Shown: piece after piece, positions 7,097 through 18,953 of the stretch
Numbering within the stretch: the stretch's first letter is position 1
Layout of the letters: every line of letters starts with the position of its first letter
Source of the DNA: a virus
Length of the DNA stretch: 29,252 nucleotides
Reading direction: 5' to 3' (one strand)
IMG/VR virus record: IMGVR_UViG_3300013131_000181
Span: 1-29,252 of that record
Translations under genes and position numbers: made by a program
The notes under the pieces: generated by a model
The model's input: the letters and a program-made list of their open reading frames with translations, nothing else
Databases searched by the model: none
What the model was told of the DNA's origin: nothing

Positions 7097-7120
7097 AAAA
7101 ACCCGCCGTAGCGGGTTTTT
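7097..7120 (-). terminator. Bidirectional terminator after the repressor-linked genes
   Basis: AAAAACCCGC (7097-7106), loop CGTA, GCGGGTTTTT (7111-7120). The U-run is present on both strands. It ends the minus-strand unit whose last gene stops at 7144. Confidence 0.85.
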
Positions 7121-7143
7121 ATCTTAAATCGAATTATATAATG

Positions 7144-7650
7144 TTAATCGTAATGAATAATCGACAGCGGCTTTTCCGTCTGCGTTGAAGACGTTCCAGG
7201 CTGCGCCGTTAATGATGTTGAGTTTGTTGGCGGCAACTTCCACATCGCTCCTGTTGCCGGATCGATAATCAACATGCCAATCAATCCACCTAAAAGAATA
7301 TTGCCGAAATACCAGCCATTAATGCCCGCATTTAGCGGCGTTGTAGCGGCTTGGTATCCCGGTTTTTTGTAGTCGATATTATATCGCCCCGGTTTGAAGT
7401 AGCCACCTCCGGTATCCAACGTGACCGTCTGAGGCGTAACACCGCTGTGGATTGACTTACCGGCGTTGTCGATAATGACAAAATCCGCTTTATCCGGCGT
7501 ACTGGTGATGACTACCGGCGAGCTTGATTCGCTGATGATGCTGGCGCAGCCGCTCAGCATGACAATCGATGCTAAAACTAATAATTTATCCTTCCATTTA
7601 CCCTTTTTTCTAAAGTTTAGGATGTAGGTACTCGTTATAAATAATTTCAT
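7144..7650 (-). CDS. Outer-membrane lipoprotein, prophage-expressed (168 aa)
   Basis: An N-terminal basic stretch (RKKGKWKDK) is followed by a hydrophobic core and a lipobox LSGC with Cys35. Ala after the Cys suggests sorting to the outer membrane. The mature part begins with a beta domain (STPDKADFVIIDNAGKSIHS, PEGA-like) and contains a conserved-looking hydrophobic patch, GWYFGNILLGGLIGMLIIDP, common to a family of uncharacterised bacterial and phage lipoproteins. The start at 7650 overlaps the preceding gene by 41 bp, and no better start is in frame. As the last gene of the repressor unit it may alter the cell surface, for example to block superinfection; that is inference. Confidence 0.75.
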   Translation of the reverse strand: MKLFITSTYILNFRKKGKWKDKLLVLASIVMLSGCASIISESSSPVVITSTPDKADFVIIDNAGKSIHSGVTPQTVTLDTGGGYFKPGRYNIDYKKPGYQAATTPLNAGINGWYFGNILLGGLIGMLIIDPATGAMWKLPPTNSTSLTAQPGTSSTQTEKPLSIIHYD

Positions 7651-8078: not shown

Positions 8079-8711
8079 TTAAATTGTAATGAAATTTAAG
8101 AACGTTTCTTCGGTTATGATTTGTATCGCTATGCCATTTTCCCGGTAGTGGTAAGCCTTCTCTATTTTGGTACCGTAGTTTTGGGTGATCCAATCCCGGC
8201 TTGCCCCGGAGCCGATGACTAAATAATCGGTTTTTTTGGTGACATTTTTAGTCGCTATGCCGCCAAATTTTTTGATGGCTTGTTCGCAGGATTTTCGGGT
8301 TCCGGCAAAAAATTCGCCGGTTAGACAAAATGTTGAGTTGCTAATAACGACATGGTTCGGATTATCGGCCATAAACTTAAAAGTCCCACCGCTGGCTGAT
8401 CCGGTTTGATGATAGTCGTTACCGGTTATATCCAGCAGCGTTTGATGCAAGTGGGCACGCTCATCTTCAGTAATGATGCCATCGGCTAAAATACTGTCCA
8501 CGCGATTTTTAATGACGTTTAAAGGGAATGTGTTGGTATGTGCTTCGTTGTCCAGCAACCAGAGATTAAGGAAATGGATTTCTTCGTCACTGACATAGTT
8601 GTCTGCGGTTATTCCCAGTAAAATACCCATTAAGGTATTGGCGGCTTTAATTTTGTTGTTGGCCCAATGGATGCCGGGTTCAGGTTGGTTATTGTTGTCG
8701 AATTGCGTCAC
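8079..8711 (-). CDS. TerB-like/BRCT two-domain protein (210 aa)
   Basis: Residues about 20-100 are a helical domain with acidic loops (NYVSDEEIHFLNLWL and ADGIITEDERAHL) like TerB/EF-hand-style metal-binding proteins. Residues about 121-208 are a BRCT domain (FCLTGEF, AIKKFGGIATKNVTKKTDYL, VIGSGAS) like the one at the end of bacterial DNA ligase LigA. BRCT modules bind DNA ends or phosphorylated partners. No ligase or exonuclease domain is present. The start is GTG (8709-8711) behind GAGG. It lies 25 bp downstream of the repressor gene and probably shares its promoter, so it would be made in the lysogen. Confidence 0.8.
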   Translation of the reverse strand: MTQFDNNNQPEPGIHWANNKIKAANTLMGILLGITADNYVSDEEIHFLNLWLLDNEAHTNTFPLNVIKNRVDSILADGIITEDERAHLHQTLLDITGNDYHQTGSASGGTFKFMADNPNHVVISNSTFCLTGEFFAGTRKSCEQAIKKFGGIATKNVTKKTDYLVIGSGASRDWITQNYGTKIEKAYHYRENGIAIQIITEETFLNFITI

Positions 8712-14421: not shown

Positions 14422-14512
14422 AATGTCTACACCTTTTAACCTCCTTTGCGTTGCCCCCACTTTGTTTTTGCGTTTTTGAAATTAAATAGAAAAAGCCCAT
14501 TGGTTGATTATT
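14422..14512. other. Gap before the small terminase, candidate cos region
   Basis: The gap contains pyrimidine-rich sequence and a T-rich stretch but no gene. Packaging sites of HNH-carrying cos phages usually lie here; no specific motif could be recognised. Confidence 0.25.
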
Positions 14513-14971
14513 ATGGCACAAGGTAGAAAGCCACAATTGGTTACTGCTGACGGAAAATTTGCGGCTTTGCCGCTACACGCTGAGCCGCAATCGGTGCATT
14601 TCGCGCGGGCAAATGAATTGCGTCCAGTGGATGATTTGAGTGAATCAGAGTTGCGCATCTGGGATCGTATAGCTCCTTATCTCGTAATGTTGGGCAGGCT
14701 TAAACCGCATTTTGTCGACGCTATGTGCGAGTATTGCCGAGTAGTCCGCCGTTTAGCTGATGCTCGTAAACAGCTAGATGAAAATGATTGGGTATACATA
14801 ACGACTGGTCGCAATGGCCAGCAATATAAAAGCCGCCCTGAAGTCGCCCAACTTAACGACGACTGGCGAAAATGGCGATCATTGGTTGGCGAGTTTGGCT
14901 TGGCGCCGGCCGCTGAACGCGGTATGCAATCCGGGCAGAATGATTTATTTGACGATTTCGATAATTTTTAA
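14513..14971 (+). CDS. Terminase small subunit, P27-like (152 aa)
   Basis: It recognises the packaging site and loads the large terminase. It begins with MAQGRKPQL, close to the GRKP head of P27-family small terminases. The middle (LSESELRIWDRIAPYLVMLG, then LKPHFVDAMCEYCRVVRRLA) has the helical pattern of the family, followed by a linker with RPEVAQLNDDWRKWRSLVGEFGLAPAAERG-like motif (split: RPEVAQLNDDWRKWR and GEFGLAPAAER). I chose the ATG at 14513 over an upstream TTG at 14504. The large terminase is not next to it: four genes intervene, which is unusual. Confidence 0.88.
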   Translation: MAQGRKPQLVTADGKFAALPLHAEPQSVHFARANELRPVDDLSESELRIWDRIAPYLVMLGRLKPHFVDAMCEYCRVVRRLADARKQLDENDWVYITTGRNGQQYKSRPEVAQLNDDWRKWRSLVGEFGLAPAAERGMQSGQNDLFDDFDNF

Positions 14972-14973
14972 AT

Positions 14974-15471
14974 ATGCAAAAAAAAATAATCACAGTAAAA
15001 GTTGATTGGTTAATACCCAATCCTCACAACAGCAGGACGCACTCAGATAAGCAAATAGCCAAAATAGCAGCCAGCATAACCGAATTTGGCTGGACTAATC
15101 CCATACTCATCGACAGCGATATGGTAATCGTGGCTGGTCATGGTCGGACAATGGCAGCTAAAAAATTAGGTATTGACTCAATACCAGCGATAGACGTATC
15201 GCATTTATCAAATGAGCAGAAACGCGCTCTGGTCATCGCGGATAATCAAATAGCGTTAGAGTCAGGTTGGGACGAAGACATCCTAAAATCAGAGCTTGAT
15301 TTTTTAAATAATTTTGAATTTAACATGGAAGTTATTGGATTTAGCGAAAAAAAATTGAACGATTTGCTTATTTATAATGATGATTTAGGCATGGACGAAA
15401 TTAAGTTAAAACAAGATCAAGATCAAAAAGAATTAAACCTATGTCCAAAATGCGGTACAAAGTTTAAATGA
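14974..15471 (+). CDS. ParB/sulfiredoxin-like domain protein (165 aa)
   Basis: It is a ParB N-terminal domain protein. Features are NPHNSRTHSDKQIAKIAASI, the GHGRT nucleotide-binding motif (55-59), and ADNQIAL (89-95) with ESGWDEDILKSEL and IGFSEKKLNDLL. The latter two motifs are typical of ParB domains that in many phages are joined to a DNA methyltransferase. Here the methyltransferase is missing and the protein ends in CPKCGTKF, a half zinc ribbon. The ParB/Srx fold binds or adenylates nucleotide-like substrates, and DpdB of the deazaguanine DNA-modification cluster has it too. The stop overlaps the start of the radical SAM gene by 4 bp (ATGA). Confidence 0.88.
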   Translation: MQKKIITVKVDWLIPNPHNSRTHSDKQIAKIAASITEFGWTNPILIDSDMVIVAGHGRTMAAKKLGIDSIPAIDVSHLSNEQKRALVIADNQIALESGWDEDILKSELDFLNNFEFNMEVIGFSEKKLNDLLIYNDDLGMDEIKLKQDQDQKELNLCPKCGTKFK

Positions 15472-16808
15472 TCCGCGTTGCTTTCCTGGTCTATTACCCA
15501 AAAAATCAACGGCGTGAAGATAACTCATTCGACGGTAACGATAATATCGGCGCAAAGGTCATTGCTGATACCTTACAAAGGGCCGGAATCCCAATAGGCT
15601 ATGTAACACCTGAGTCTGCGCATATTGATGCAGATATAGTGCTTATATCATTAACTAGCACCCACGATATTTTTGCGCTTCTATCGGCAGTCTCATTATT
15701 GCCAACCTGGCAGCCTGGTAATCGTAAATTCCAAGTGCTCGCGGGTGGATTTGGCATGCAGAATCCAACAGCAATCCGTCGCTATGTAGACTACTGCGCA
15801 TTTGGTCGTGCCCACGAATGGGTAGTCGATATTATCAATGCAATGAGCAATGGTAATCGTCCCCAGCATGACAGTTTGCTAGATATAGCACAATTTAATC
15901 CGGTCACAATTTACCAGGGGACCATGTACCCACATACTGTTGATGGATTCATGGAGGAATTTACCGGCTGCCCGCTCAAGTGCAAATTTTGTCACTATAC
16001 TTATGCGCGAAAACATCAAGGCAGTGATGCTTCTTATGCCAAAGGCGCTTATGTGCAGAACAGTTTAACCGGTGGCGGTACGCCCGAGGTCACCTGGGAC
16101 CAGTTATTAACGTGGGGAAAAAAAGCCGGTCGTGTGCGCGTCGCTATCGACGGATTCTCTGAGCGCATCCGCTATTTGTACGGAAAACGGATCAGCAATG
16201 ACGACATTGTCGCCGGAATAGAAAATATGGGATCGTTTTCTGAGGAGAAGGCAACAACTTTGATGGTTTATAACATCGTCAATTTCCCCGGTGAGACCGA
16301 TCAAGATTATCAAGAATTTGTTGATACCGTACAACGCGCAAATCCAAAAGGACGAGTGATATTTGTTGTGCAATCGACACCATTTAGACCATCAATCGCA
16401 ACACCGATGCAGTGGGAGCCTGTAACGCTGTATCCAGATTGGTCAAAACGGCGTACCGAAGTGGTAATAGAGCGCCCTAATCTGAGGGTTGTGCATAGTT
16501 TTACGTTGGAGACACCGTGGACTCATTTGCAGTCGGTTATTGCAGAGAGGGCTACACTAGATGATGACGATGCCATTAAAGCAATCATCCACTCGCCAAA
16601 ATTAAAAAAGCTGAATGCTGAAGGCGCATTAAAACTATTCAGTCGTAATTTTGATATTAACAAATATGTCAAAGAGCTAGATATAGAAGAACAACATCCA
16701 GCCCATTTTGTTAATGGGTACCTAAGACAAGCCCAAATTAAAAAAATAGCCCATAAAATGCGGAGACAGCGTAATGCCTGGTCCGACAAAAGAACAGCAA
16801 TCGCGTGA
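15468..16808 (+). CDS. Radical SAM enzyme with N-terminal Rossmann (B12-binding-like) domain (446 aa)
   Basis: Residues about 1-125 form a Rossmann-like domain (NIGAKVIADTLQRAGIPIGY, ADIVLISLTS, VLAGGFG) of the kind that precedes class B radical SAM enzymes. A cobalamin DxHxxG motif is not visible, so B12 use is uncertain. The [4Fe-4S] motif is Cys168-x3-Cys172-x2-Cys175 in EFTGCPLKCKFCHY. The core continues with VRVAIDGFSERIR and VNFPGETDQDYQEF, then a C-terminal basic helix region (RQAQIKKIAHKMRRQRN). It is too long and differently built to be QueE. It lies between small and large terminase genes and overlaps ParB-like and 66-residue genes. The substrate is unknown; DNA base modification is the suggestion. 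Confidence 0.88.
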   Translation: MIRVAFLVYYPKNQRREDNSFDGNDNIGAKVIADTLQRAGIPIGYVTPESAHIDADIVLISLTSTHDIFALLSAVSLLPTWQPGNRKFQVLAGGFGMQNPTAIRRYVDYCAFGRAHEWVVDIINAMSNGNRPQHDSLLDIAQFNPVTIYQGTMYPHTVDGFMEEFTGCPLKCKFCHYTYARKHQGSDASYAKGAYVQNSLTGGGTPEVTWDQLLTWGKKAGRVRVAIDGFSERIRYLYGKRISNDDIVAGIENMGSFSEEKATTLMVYNIVNFPGETDQDYQEFVDTVQRANPKGRVIFVVQSTPFRPSIATPMQWEPVTLYPDWSKRRTEVVIERPNLRVVHSFTLETPWTHLQSVIAERATLDDDDAIKAIIHSPKLKKLNAEGALKLFSRNFDINKYVKELDIEEQHPAHFVNGYLRQAQIKKIAHKMRRQRNAWSDKRTAIA

Positions 16809-16974
16809 ATTGTGTATATCGGCAAAAAAACATCTCAATGCGATTAAGGCCATATCAGTTAATCCTAAAGGGTCTCAACATTATAAGCCGCCCTTACAAG
16901 AAATTGAGCGACTAAAAATAAAAATACAAAAACTCGAATCGTTATGGTCTGATGGCAGCGCTAAATCAAATTGA
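16774..16974 (+). CDS. Small basic helical protein next to radical SAM (66 aa)
   Basis: The sequence starts MPGPTKEQQSREL with basic residues and ends in a heptad-like helix (LQEIERLKIKIQKLESLW). It may be a coiled-coil dimer. It overlaps the radical SAM gene by 35 bp and the next gene by 23 bp. There is no known family. It could be a partner of the ParB-radical SAM pair or a terminase accessory. Confidence 0.6.
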   Translation: MPGPTKEQQSRELCISAKKHLNAIKAISVNPKGSQHYKPPLQEIERLKIKIQKLESLWSDGSAKSN

Positions 16975-17254
16975 TTATGTCATGTTCATCGATGATGTCA
17001 TGGCTAGACTAATTATCGCTTGGATGCGTATGGATACGACTGAAAGTGACCCTATATTAGATGGTGCTACATGTCGCTGGTCTCCTAGGAAAATAACTCA
17101 AGTAATGGGATTATCAAGAGGCCAGGTATCAGAATTAATAGAAAAATCCTTGTATCTTGGGATCATTAATAAGGACGGATCGGTATCTGATAGTGCACAA
17201 ACAGTCGTACAAGCAATGATTAATAGTAAAATTAAAGAGATACGTGGGGACTGA
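16952..17254 (+). CDS. Small HTH protein before the large terminase (100 aa)
   Basis: The sequence has a helix-turn-helix pattern (SPRKITQVMGLSRGQVSELI) followed by a hydrophobic strand (SLYLGIINKDG), like a small DNA-binding regulator. The head (YVMFIDDVMARLIIAWMRMD) is helical and hydrophobic. It overlaps the 66-residue gene before it and the large terminase start (11 bp). No family is recognised. It could recognise a packaging or modification site. Confidence 0.6.
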   Translation: MAALNQIDYVMFIDDVMARLIIAWMRMDTTESDPILDGATCRWSPRKITQVMGLSRGQVSELIEKSLYLGIINKDGSVSDSAQTVVQAMINSKIKEIRGD

Positions 17255-18953
17255 TCCACTAGAAAAAGCCGCTCAATATGGGCGCGACGTGCTAAACGGC
17301 AAAATAATCACCGGAAACCTGGTTAAACTAGCCATCCAGCGCCACGAAACCGATCTCAAACAAGCCCACCATCGTGGGCTTGTTTTTTGCGAGGAATCGG
17401 CCTATCGGGTGCTGAAAACGTTCGATTATCTCAAGCACTCTAAAGGCGATCTGGCCGGACAGGTCATCGAACTGGAACCCTGGCAATGCTGGATCATTGC
17501 TTGCGTGTTCGGGTGGAAATACCAAGACAGCGAGCGCCGCCGATACCGCACCGTATACGAGGAAATAGCGCGCAAGAACGCCAAGACAACCAAATTAGCT
17601 GGCATTGGCTTATACGGATTAACTAAGGACAACGAAGGTGGGCCGGAAATCTACGCCGCCGCGACCAAGGCAGAGCAGGCGCGTATTTTATTCGACTCTG
17701 CTGGCGCAATGGTTAAGCAATCGGGGGCATTAAGAAATCGTCTTGACGACCAAAAGCATCGGATCATCAATGCAAAAAACTTCGGAAAATTCGTCCCGCT
17801 AAGCGCCGACGGCCAAACAATGGACGGACTTAACCCGCACTTCGCTTTAGTCGACGAGCTGCACGCGCATAAAACCAGCGAAGTCTGGGATGTACTGCGA
17901 TCAGCCCTTGGTGCGCGTTCGCAACCTCTTATATGGGCGATCACGACGGCAGGATTCAACAAAAACGGCATCTGTTATGAAATACGAGACTACGCAATCA
18001 AGGTGTTGCAAGGCATTATCGACGACGACAGCTTTTTCGGAATCATCTACACCCTGGATGACGAAGACCTGAAAAACGAGGGCTGGAAAAACGAGGAAAA
18101 CTGGATAAAAGCCAATCCAAATCTAGGCATATCGGTCGACATCGACTATCTGCGAGACCAGTCCAAGCAGGCCGCCGTCATGCCGACCGCATTGACAAAT
18201 TTCCTAACCAAACATCTCAACGTCTGGACAACCGGCGCTAACCTCTGGTGCAACGTCGAGATGTGGAAACAATGCAGCACATTTATCCTGGACAAAAACA
18301 AAGACCATGATTTCACATGCTGGTTAGCCGATGCCGTAGAGATTTACCTCGGGATTGACTTATCTACCGTATCAGACATCGCCAGCGTCGGCGGTATCGC
18401 CGTCATGGCCGACGGCAATTGGCGAGTCTTCGGAAAGCACTACCTGCCCGAGGAAAACGTCCATCGCAACATCCGAAAAACCATTGTCCCGTTTACGAGA
18501 TGGGCAGCCGACGGCTGGCTGACGCTCACACCCGGTAACATCATTGATTACGAATGGATCAAGGCCGACATCGTATCCCTGAAAAACAAATTCGGCGAAA
18601 AAATAAAAGAAGTGGCTTTCGACCGCTGGAACAGCTCCCAACTGGTCAACGATTTAACCGATCTTGGCTTAATCATGGTCGGATTCGGGCAGGGCTATGT
18701 CAGCATGAACGCCCCCATGAAAGAGCTTGAGCGGCGGTATTTATCCGGACAAATACAGCACCAAAACGATCCGGTGCTGAACTGGACAATGTCAAACGTC
18801 GTCGCCGAGCAAGACCCGGCCGGCAACGTCAAGCCATCAAAGGCCAAATCCAGCGAAAAAATAGACCCCGCTGTCGCCGTCATCATGGCGATAGGTCGTG
18901 CCATGATGACAGAAATAACCGAACAACAAGACCCTGGCTGCGAGTTCTGGTAA
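17244..18953 (+). CDS. Terminase large subunit (569 aa)
   Basis: It is the ATP-driven packaging motor and nuclease. The ATPase half has a deviant Walker A EEIARKNAKTTKLAG (about 106-120), as in HK97-type large terminases, and a Walker B ALVDELHAH (201-209), with the coupling motif ITTAG (about 232-236). The nuclease half begins near 360 (YLGIDLSTVSDIASVGGIAV, with Asp as metal ligand) and has the acidic VAFDRWNSSQL stretch. The length matches the family. The start is GTG at 17244, with AAAGAGA upstream. It overlaps the preceding gene by 11 bp and the portal gene by 1 bp. Confidence 0.95.
   Translation: MGTDPLEKAAQYGRDVLNGKIITGNLVKLAIQRHETDLKQAHHRGLVFCEESAYRVLKTFDYLKHSKGDLAGQVIELEPWQCWIIACVFGWKYQDSERRRYRTVYEEIARKNAKTTKLAGIGLYGLTKDNEGGPEIYAAATKAEQARILFDSAGAMVKQSGALRNRLDDQKHRIINAKNFGKFVPLSADGQTMDGLNPHFALVDELHAHKTSEVWDVLRSALGARSQPLIWAITTAGFNKNGICYEIRDYAIKVLQGIIDDDSFFGIIYTLDDEDLKNEGWKNEENWIKANPNLGISVDIDYLRDQSKQAAVMPTALTNFLTKHLNVWTTGANLWCNVEMWKQCSTFILDKNKDHDFTCWLADAVEIYLGIDLSTVSDIASVGGIAVMADGNWRVFGKHYLPEENVHRNIRKTIVPFTRWAADGWLTLTPGNIIDYEWIKADIVSLKNKFGEKIKEVAFDRWNSSQLVNDLTDLGLIMVGFGQGYVSMNAPMKELERRYLSGQIQHQNDPVLNWTMSNVVAEQDPAGNVKPSKAKSSEKIDPAVAVIMAIGRAMMTEITEQQDPGCEFW

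Follow-up and report, generated by a model that had tools for sequence, protein, structure and literature searches.

A ParB-like protein and a predicted cobalamin-type radical SAM enzyme form a recurrent phage gene pair that may modify DNA

What is the function of a radical SAM enzyme encoded directly behind a ParB-like protein and between the two terminase genes of a phage? We met this arrangement in the 29,252-base IMG/VR virus record IMGVR_UViG_3300013131_000181 (positions 1 to 29,252, hereafter the window), which has the look of a temperate tailed phage: it encodes an integrase, a CI-like repressor, an HNH nuclease, both terminase subunits (TerS and TerL), and portal, protease, and capsid proteins. 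An earlier note on this DNA had described a ParB protein with a GHGRT motif beside a 446-aa radical SAM protein carrying Cys168, Cys172, and Cys175, and these features were confirmed in the sequence and by Pfam (Table 1). The two had also been called translationally fused through an ATGA. The overlap is there and likely couples their translation; they are, however, two overlapping genes and not a fusion. Overlaps, noted before from the radical SAM gene to TerL, were present at every junction from ParB onward, and the block was indeed more AT-rich than its flanks (GC 0.417 for 14974-17254 vs 0.48-0.53 in flanking genes and 0.50 in the window). In the window genes that were examined, we recognised none dedicated to nucleotide biosynthesis, on a contig that may be a fragment. 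Elsewhere in the window, a predicted protein on the minus strand (8079-8711) has a C-terminal stretch, spotted by eye, that is BRCT-like (SNSTFCLTGEFFAGTRKSCEQAIKKFGG).

Table 1. Features of the cassette and its flanks, in window coordinates
Feature	Coordinates	Strand	Evidence
TerS, terminase small subunit (flank)	14504..14971	+	Pfam Terminase_4 E=2.3e-15
ParB/Srx-fold protein, 165 aa	14974..15471	+	Pfam ParB_N E=1.3e-7; phrog_620 E=1e-54
CPKCGTKFK tail of ParB, last nine codons before stop	15442..15468	+	Alignments
ATGA, radical SAM start overlapping ParB stop (TGA)	15468..15471	+	Sequence
Radical SAM enzyme, predicted cobalamin-type class B, 446 aa	15468..16808	+	Pfam Radical_SAM E=7.5e-8; fold match to MgmA
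66-aa basic protein ORF	16774-16974		ORF list; no confident family match
100-aa HTH ORF (winged-HTH-like)	16952-17254		No confident family match
TerL, terminase large subunit (flank)	17244..18953	+	Pfam TerL_ATPase + TerL_nuclease

Recurrence and distribution of the pair

IMG/VR was scanned with single sequences, then with alignments, and then with the cysteine motif alone. Relatives of the radical SAM protein were found in 17 other distinct contigs, mostly with 35-56% identity to the protein of the window; narrow-pattern viral scans gave only one relative and the wider alignments gave the rest. The most divergent member, used as the seed of a scan, recovered only itself, and one pattern match (L006) was discarded as a chance hit rather than a relative. 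No tblastn match to the protein was obtained in 50,697 phage records (INPHARED) or 72,556 plasmids (PLSDB). Among 84,980 species genomes, one was positive, through a contig (L022) of a metagenome-assembled Bacteroidetes genome that is itself phage-like, its genes matching the viral contig L027. When 295 more genomes from the same phylum were searched with a profile, none gave a match at 1e-20. The distribution found is phage-restricted, with the proviso that distant cellular relatives may be missed because the scans depend on conserved peptides. Homologues occurring mostly without ParB in housekeeping contexts, named in the earlier note as evidence against its proposal, were sought in phages, plasmids, and species genomes and were not found.

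The gene-neighbourhood check that the note had suggested bore out the pairing. Of the 15 loci having upstream DNA, 14 had a ParB with a CP-x-C tail as the gene just before the enzyme (the window, L007, L008, L009, L010, L011, L012, L022/L027, L023, L028, L029, L031, L117, and L118; L008 comprises the ParB tail only, L011 is partial, and L011 and L012 are near-identical), and recurrence of the pair in 13 loci other than the window places it beyond chance. L117 and L118, both with a tailed ParB upstream, were found via the enzyme cysteine motif alone. The enzyme start overlapped the ParB end in most loci, and the only ParB matches in enzyme-bearing contigs were those adjoining the enzyme. No ParB match was found in the whole 44.9-kb record of one divergent relative (L030:6001-7293, 39%). 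The radical SAM frame of L009 (3075-4373) contains an in-frame TAG close to the C-terminal end, and ~140 nt separate this frame from ParB. A remnant of the enzyme, approximately its last 150 aa, occurs beside terminase genes in L003 (= L014) at 7120-7584 as a decayed copy, an HTH gene occupying the place of the 5' part and of ParB.

ParB bodies have been exchanged beside the enzyme, diverging to about 21-37% identity where the enzymes share 64-78% (L009/L010: enzyme 71%, ParB 25%; L009/L028: enzyme 78%, ParB 36%). Both genes were under purifying selection in L009/L012 (w=0.04 for the enzyme, 0.06 for ParB), the only pair in which enzyme dS was unsaturated, dN/dS being saturated in most pairs. 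Terminase genes were adjacent or near in nearly all loci; their relative orders differed and they spanned at least four Pfam families (TerL_ATPase/nuclease, Terminase_6, Terminase_3, and GpA), which suggests that the ParB-enzyme pair was inserted independently and repeatedly. The 66-aa and HTH genes, which the earlier note lists behind the enzyme, did not turn up in the other loci that were read, most of which pass from the enzyme to the terminase genes, and we therefore left them out of the conserved unit.

Predicted structures of the two proteins

The cluster motif of the enzyme, CPLKCKFC (CX3CX2C), was invariant in all 13 alignment rows covering it. Its three cysteines were the only invariant cysteines in the family alignment, which argues against a second cluster such as that of methylthiotransferases. 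A B12-binding-like Rossmann domain (residues ~1-131) precedes the radical SAM core and a C-terminal helical region. An AlphaFold2 model built on 14 relatives (pLDDT 82.4, pTM 0.83) had as its best solved match MgmA, the methyl-coenzyme M reductase glutamine C-methylase (PDB 9ccb; TIGR04014), with a Foldseek E of 1.2e-9 and Z 16.4 over 308 residues. Further full-length matches were CysS (Z 13.2), AprD4, OxsB (12.6), TsrM (12.0), and MiaB with RNA (11.7), and the model of residues 1-131 matched cobalamin-binding domains at Z about 8-10. Window enzyme and MgmA share the two-domain architecture of class B cobalamin radical SAM proteins; MgmA, by contrast, is an archaeal protein methylase with about 18% identity to the window enzyme.

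Sequence comparison gave a fainter signal for the N-terminal domain (Radical_SAM_N2 E 6.5e-4, below the Pfam cut-off; B12-binding E 0.07). A profile of the family found MgmA in the PDB (E 4.5e-6), where single-sequence phmmer gave nothing useful. The radical SAM protein passed no curated NCBIfam cut-off, scoring 22.7 bits against the 360 set for TIGR04014, and matched MiaB-like models weakly; BFVD yielded one match at 21% identity (A0A8S5QA32). The classical DxHxxG is absent from the cobalamin loop, a point against the proposed cobalamin use that does not decide the matter, since many class B radical SAM enzymes are without this motif. A QueE or other deazaguanine enzyme was considered and rejected, the only match being one of 23 residues to phrog_2076 (E 0.37). 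Sequence and model together refine the reading to a probable cobalamin-type class B enzyme, predicted to bind cobalamin, and away from the deazaguanine-type link drawn in the earlier note.

Its partner comprises an N-terminal ParB domain with a GHGR box, a helical middle, a disordered linker, and a C-terminal CPKCGTKFK knuckle, and carries the motifs GHGRT, ADNQ..ESGWD, and IGFSEKKLNDLL. The phrog_620 profile matched residues 2-164, which counts as full length. The structure model (pLDDT 83.5) matched the nucleotide-binding domains of ParB, Noc, and KorB, with weaker matches to a serine kinase and to sulfiredoxin. The N-terminal fold is thus common to the chromosomal ParB/Noc/KorB CTPases (6sdk, 7nfu, and others). 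Unlike those proteins, however, the 165-aa window ParB gave no HTH match in Pfam, and the partition CTPase boxes GERRxRA and ENxQR are replaced by GHGRTMAA and IADNQIA (GHGR for GERRxRA, ADN for ENxQR), so that it does not read as a partition protein. The CP-x-C tail was invariant across 32 aligned tailed ParBs; with a single CP-x-C per chain, a metal site could be shared between two ParB protomers or between ParB and the enzyme.

Enzymes in the same slot beside related ParBs

Window ParB matched 499 phage records. To place its partner, we took the 80 closest ParBs of the window type in IMG/VR, 41 of which were fused, and scanned the next genes of 36 split ones. In agreement with the earlier statement that this ParB type normally accompanies a DNA methyltransferase in phages, N6_N4_Mtase was found in 40 of the 41 fusions. 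Behind split ParBs, 28 of the 36 next genes encoded Mom (17), a C5 DNA_methylase (9), or TAGT (2); the others were two of ABC-ATPase type, two His_Phos+CTP_transf, three without match, and one apparently TerS. The upstream genes of the same ParBs served as control: three of 68 matched N6_N4_Mtase, a few others had methyltransferase-fold matches, one was a GNAT, and none of the 68 was Mom, C5, or TAGT. Among cultured phages, the gene after ParB encodes a C5-cytosine methyltransferase in Moraxella Mcat8, Mom in Psychrobacter Y8A, an ABC-ATPase/GNAT protein in Pasteurella Pmp13 and Pseudoalteromonas SL25, and in Fusobacterium phiFN37 a protein annotated as queuine tRNA-ribosyltransferase (TGT) with no Pfam match; in Vibrio 1.213, ParB is fused to what we judge by sequence to be a DNA methyltransferase.

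The earlier view that a radical SAM enzyme had replaced the methyltransferase is supported in part and refined: the methyltransferase slot exchanges its occupants, with Mom, C5-methyltransferases, a TAGT glycosyltransferase, and a TGT-annotated protein found there as well. Slot enzyme families of known function act on polymerised DNA, and ParBs of the window type mark phage DNA-modification modules. The CP-x-C tail was present beside the C5-methyltransferase group, one Mom group, and three partners without Pfam match, and absent beside the other Mom group and the ABC-GNAT, TAGT, and phosphatase partners.

Three observations concern other occupants of the slot. A family of ~195 aa (MxPPxGWHY...) without Pfam match lies beside tailed ParBs at L036:3987-4583, L065:3631-4206, and L104:1298-1876 and is a candidate for another DNA-modifying enzyme. 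At L035:1419-2384 and L060:2942-3892, ParB is followed by a two-domain protein resembling a histidine phosphatase and a cytidylyltransferase, for which a sugar- or nucleotide-linked DNA modification is possible. In phiFN37 (L019:595-1880), ParB, here with a CPHCG tail, overlaps the TGT-annotated gene, and a queosine precursor transporter gene is nearby.

The window cassette thus shares with ParB-DNA methyltransferase fusions and with ParB-Mom and ParB-C5-methyltransferase pairs the ParB family itself (phrog_620), and the C5-methyltransferase group and one Mom group also have its CP-x-C tail. In the methyltransferase and Mom systems ParB likewise lies directly upstream with an overlap, often next to terminase. 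What differs is the enzyme: by prediction it belongs to the B12-type radical SAM proteins and has no relation to the methyltransferase, Mom, or glycosyltransferase folds. ParBc proteins are also frequent neighbours of phage cytosine-modifying enzymes, among them the CmoX carboxymethyltransferase systems of DNA hypermodification, in a 2025 paper that gives their role as unknown; CmoX is a DNA cytosine C5-carboxymethyltransferase and not a radical SAM protein (PMC12783734). The open literature that we searched yielded no system combining ParB with a radical SAM enzyme, and other papers may mention one. The arrangement of a ParB with a modifying enzyme is already known; this enzyme class we found nowhere described for it.

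Proposed function and its alternatives

Given that the known slot enzymes act on polymerised DNA and that no nucleotide-biosynthesis gene was recognised in the part of the window looked at, we consider it probable that the cassette modifies phage DNA after replication, a B12-type radical SAM enzyme doing the chemistry and ParB serving as its DNA or NTP adaptor. The enzyme, probably cobalamin-dependent, would alter bases or deoxyriboses in phage DNA that is already polymerised. The likeliest chemistry would place a methyl or another carbon group on an unactivated carbon; C-methylation is less certain than the DNA-modification account itself, and we hold only tentatively that DNA receives a C-linked modification, such as C-methylation, from this phage-restricted cobalamin-dependent family. 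ParB, made just before the enzyme and perhaps joined to it via the CP-x-C tail, may bring the enzyme to DNA or gate it through nucleotide binding, and the product would protect virion DNA against host nucleases.

Guilt by association cannot name a substrate, and the best fold matches include enzymes acting on proteins or small molecules (MgmA, TsrM, and CysS). The enzyme might instead act on a protein, such as a subunit of the terminase or the capsid, ParB then being only a neighbour or a separate DNA nickase. MgmA, the closest solved fold, methylates a glutamine of methyl-coenzyme M reductase, and nearly all loci lie by terminase genes. However, those terminases differ so much across loci that no common protein substrate is evident, adjacency to ParB is kept although ParB bodies diverge, and slot enzymes of known family act on DNA; we regard protein modification as unlikely. 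Rather improbable, too, is a moron or conflict module, with ParB acting as an NTP-dependent nickase or nuclease and the enzyme, instead of modifying the genome, producing a nucleotide or signal to block rivals or host defences. The AT-rich block does look mobile, and NTPase and DNase or nicking activity has been described for ParB/Srx proteins, including a ParB-adenine methylase that nicks (PMC5512222), but the known-family neighbours of these ParBs are overwhelmingly DNA-modifying enzymes, whereas those on the upstream control side are not.

An auxiliary gene encoding a MiaB/RimO-type methylthiotransferase, or another enzyme that modifies RNA, would fit the weak MiaB-like family matches and the fold match to MiaB with RNA. 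This we hold to be very improbable: the three further conserved N-terminal cysteines of such enzymes were not found, only the radical SAM cysteines being invariant, the C-terminus is modelled as helices and not as a beta-barrel TRAM domain, and no cellular housekeeping homologues emerged from the 84,980 species genomes and the 295 further genomes. DNA modification remains our preferred reading, in a slot that also holds partners without an established DNA-modification role (the histidine-phosphatase/cytidylyltransferase proteins and the three without match).

No radical SAM enzyme is known to us that modifies a base or a sugar within polymerised DNA. If the proposal is true, radical SAM/B12 chemistry would join the disguises of phage DNA and reach carbons beyond those open to ordinary methyltransferases, and the cassette would offer a new DNA modification with a testable two-gene system. 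The pair also bears on the puzzle of why phage DNA-modifying enzymes come with small ParB proteins, and it provides a usable rule: a ParB with a CP-x-C tail marks a slot in which unknown DNA-modifying enzymes may be found, a further unknown partner family already occupying it at three loci.
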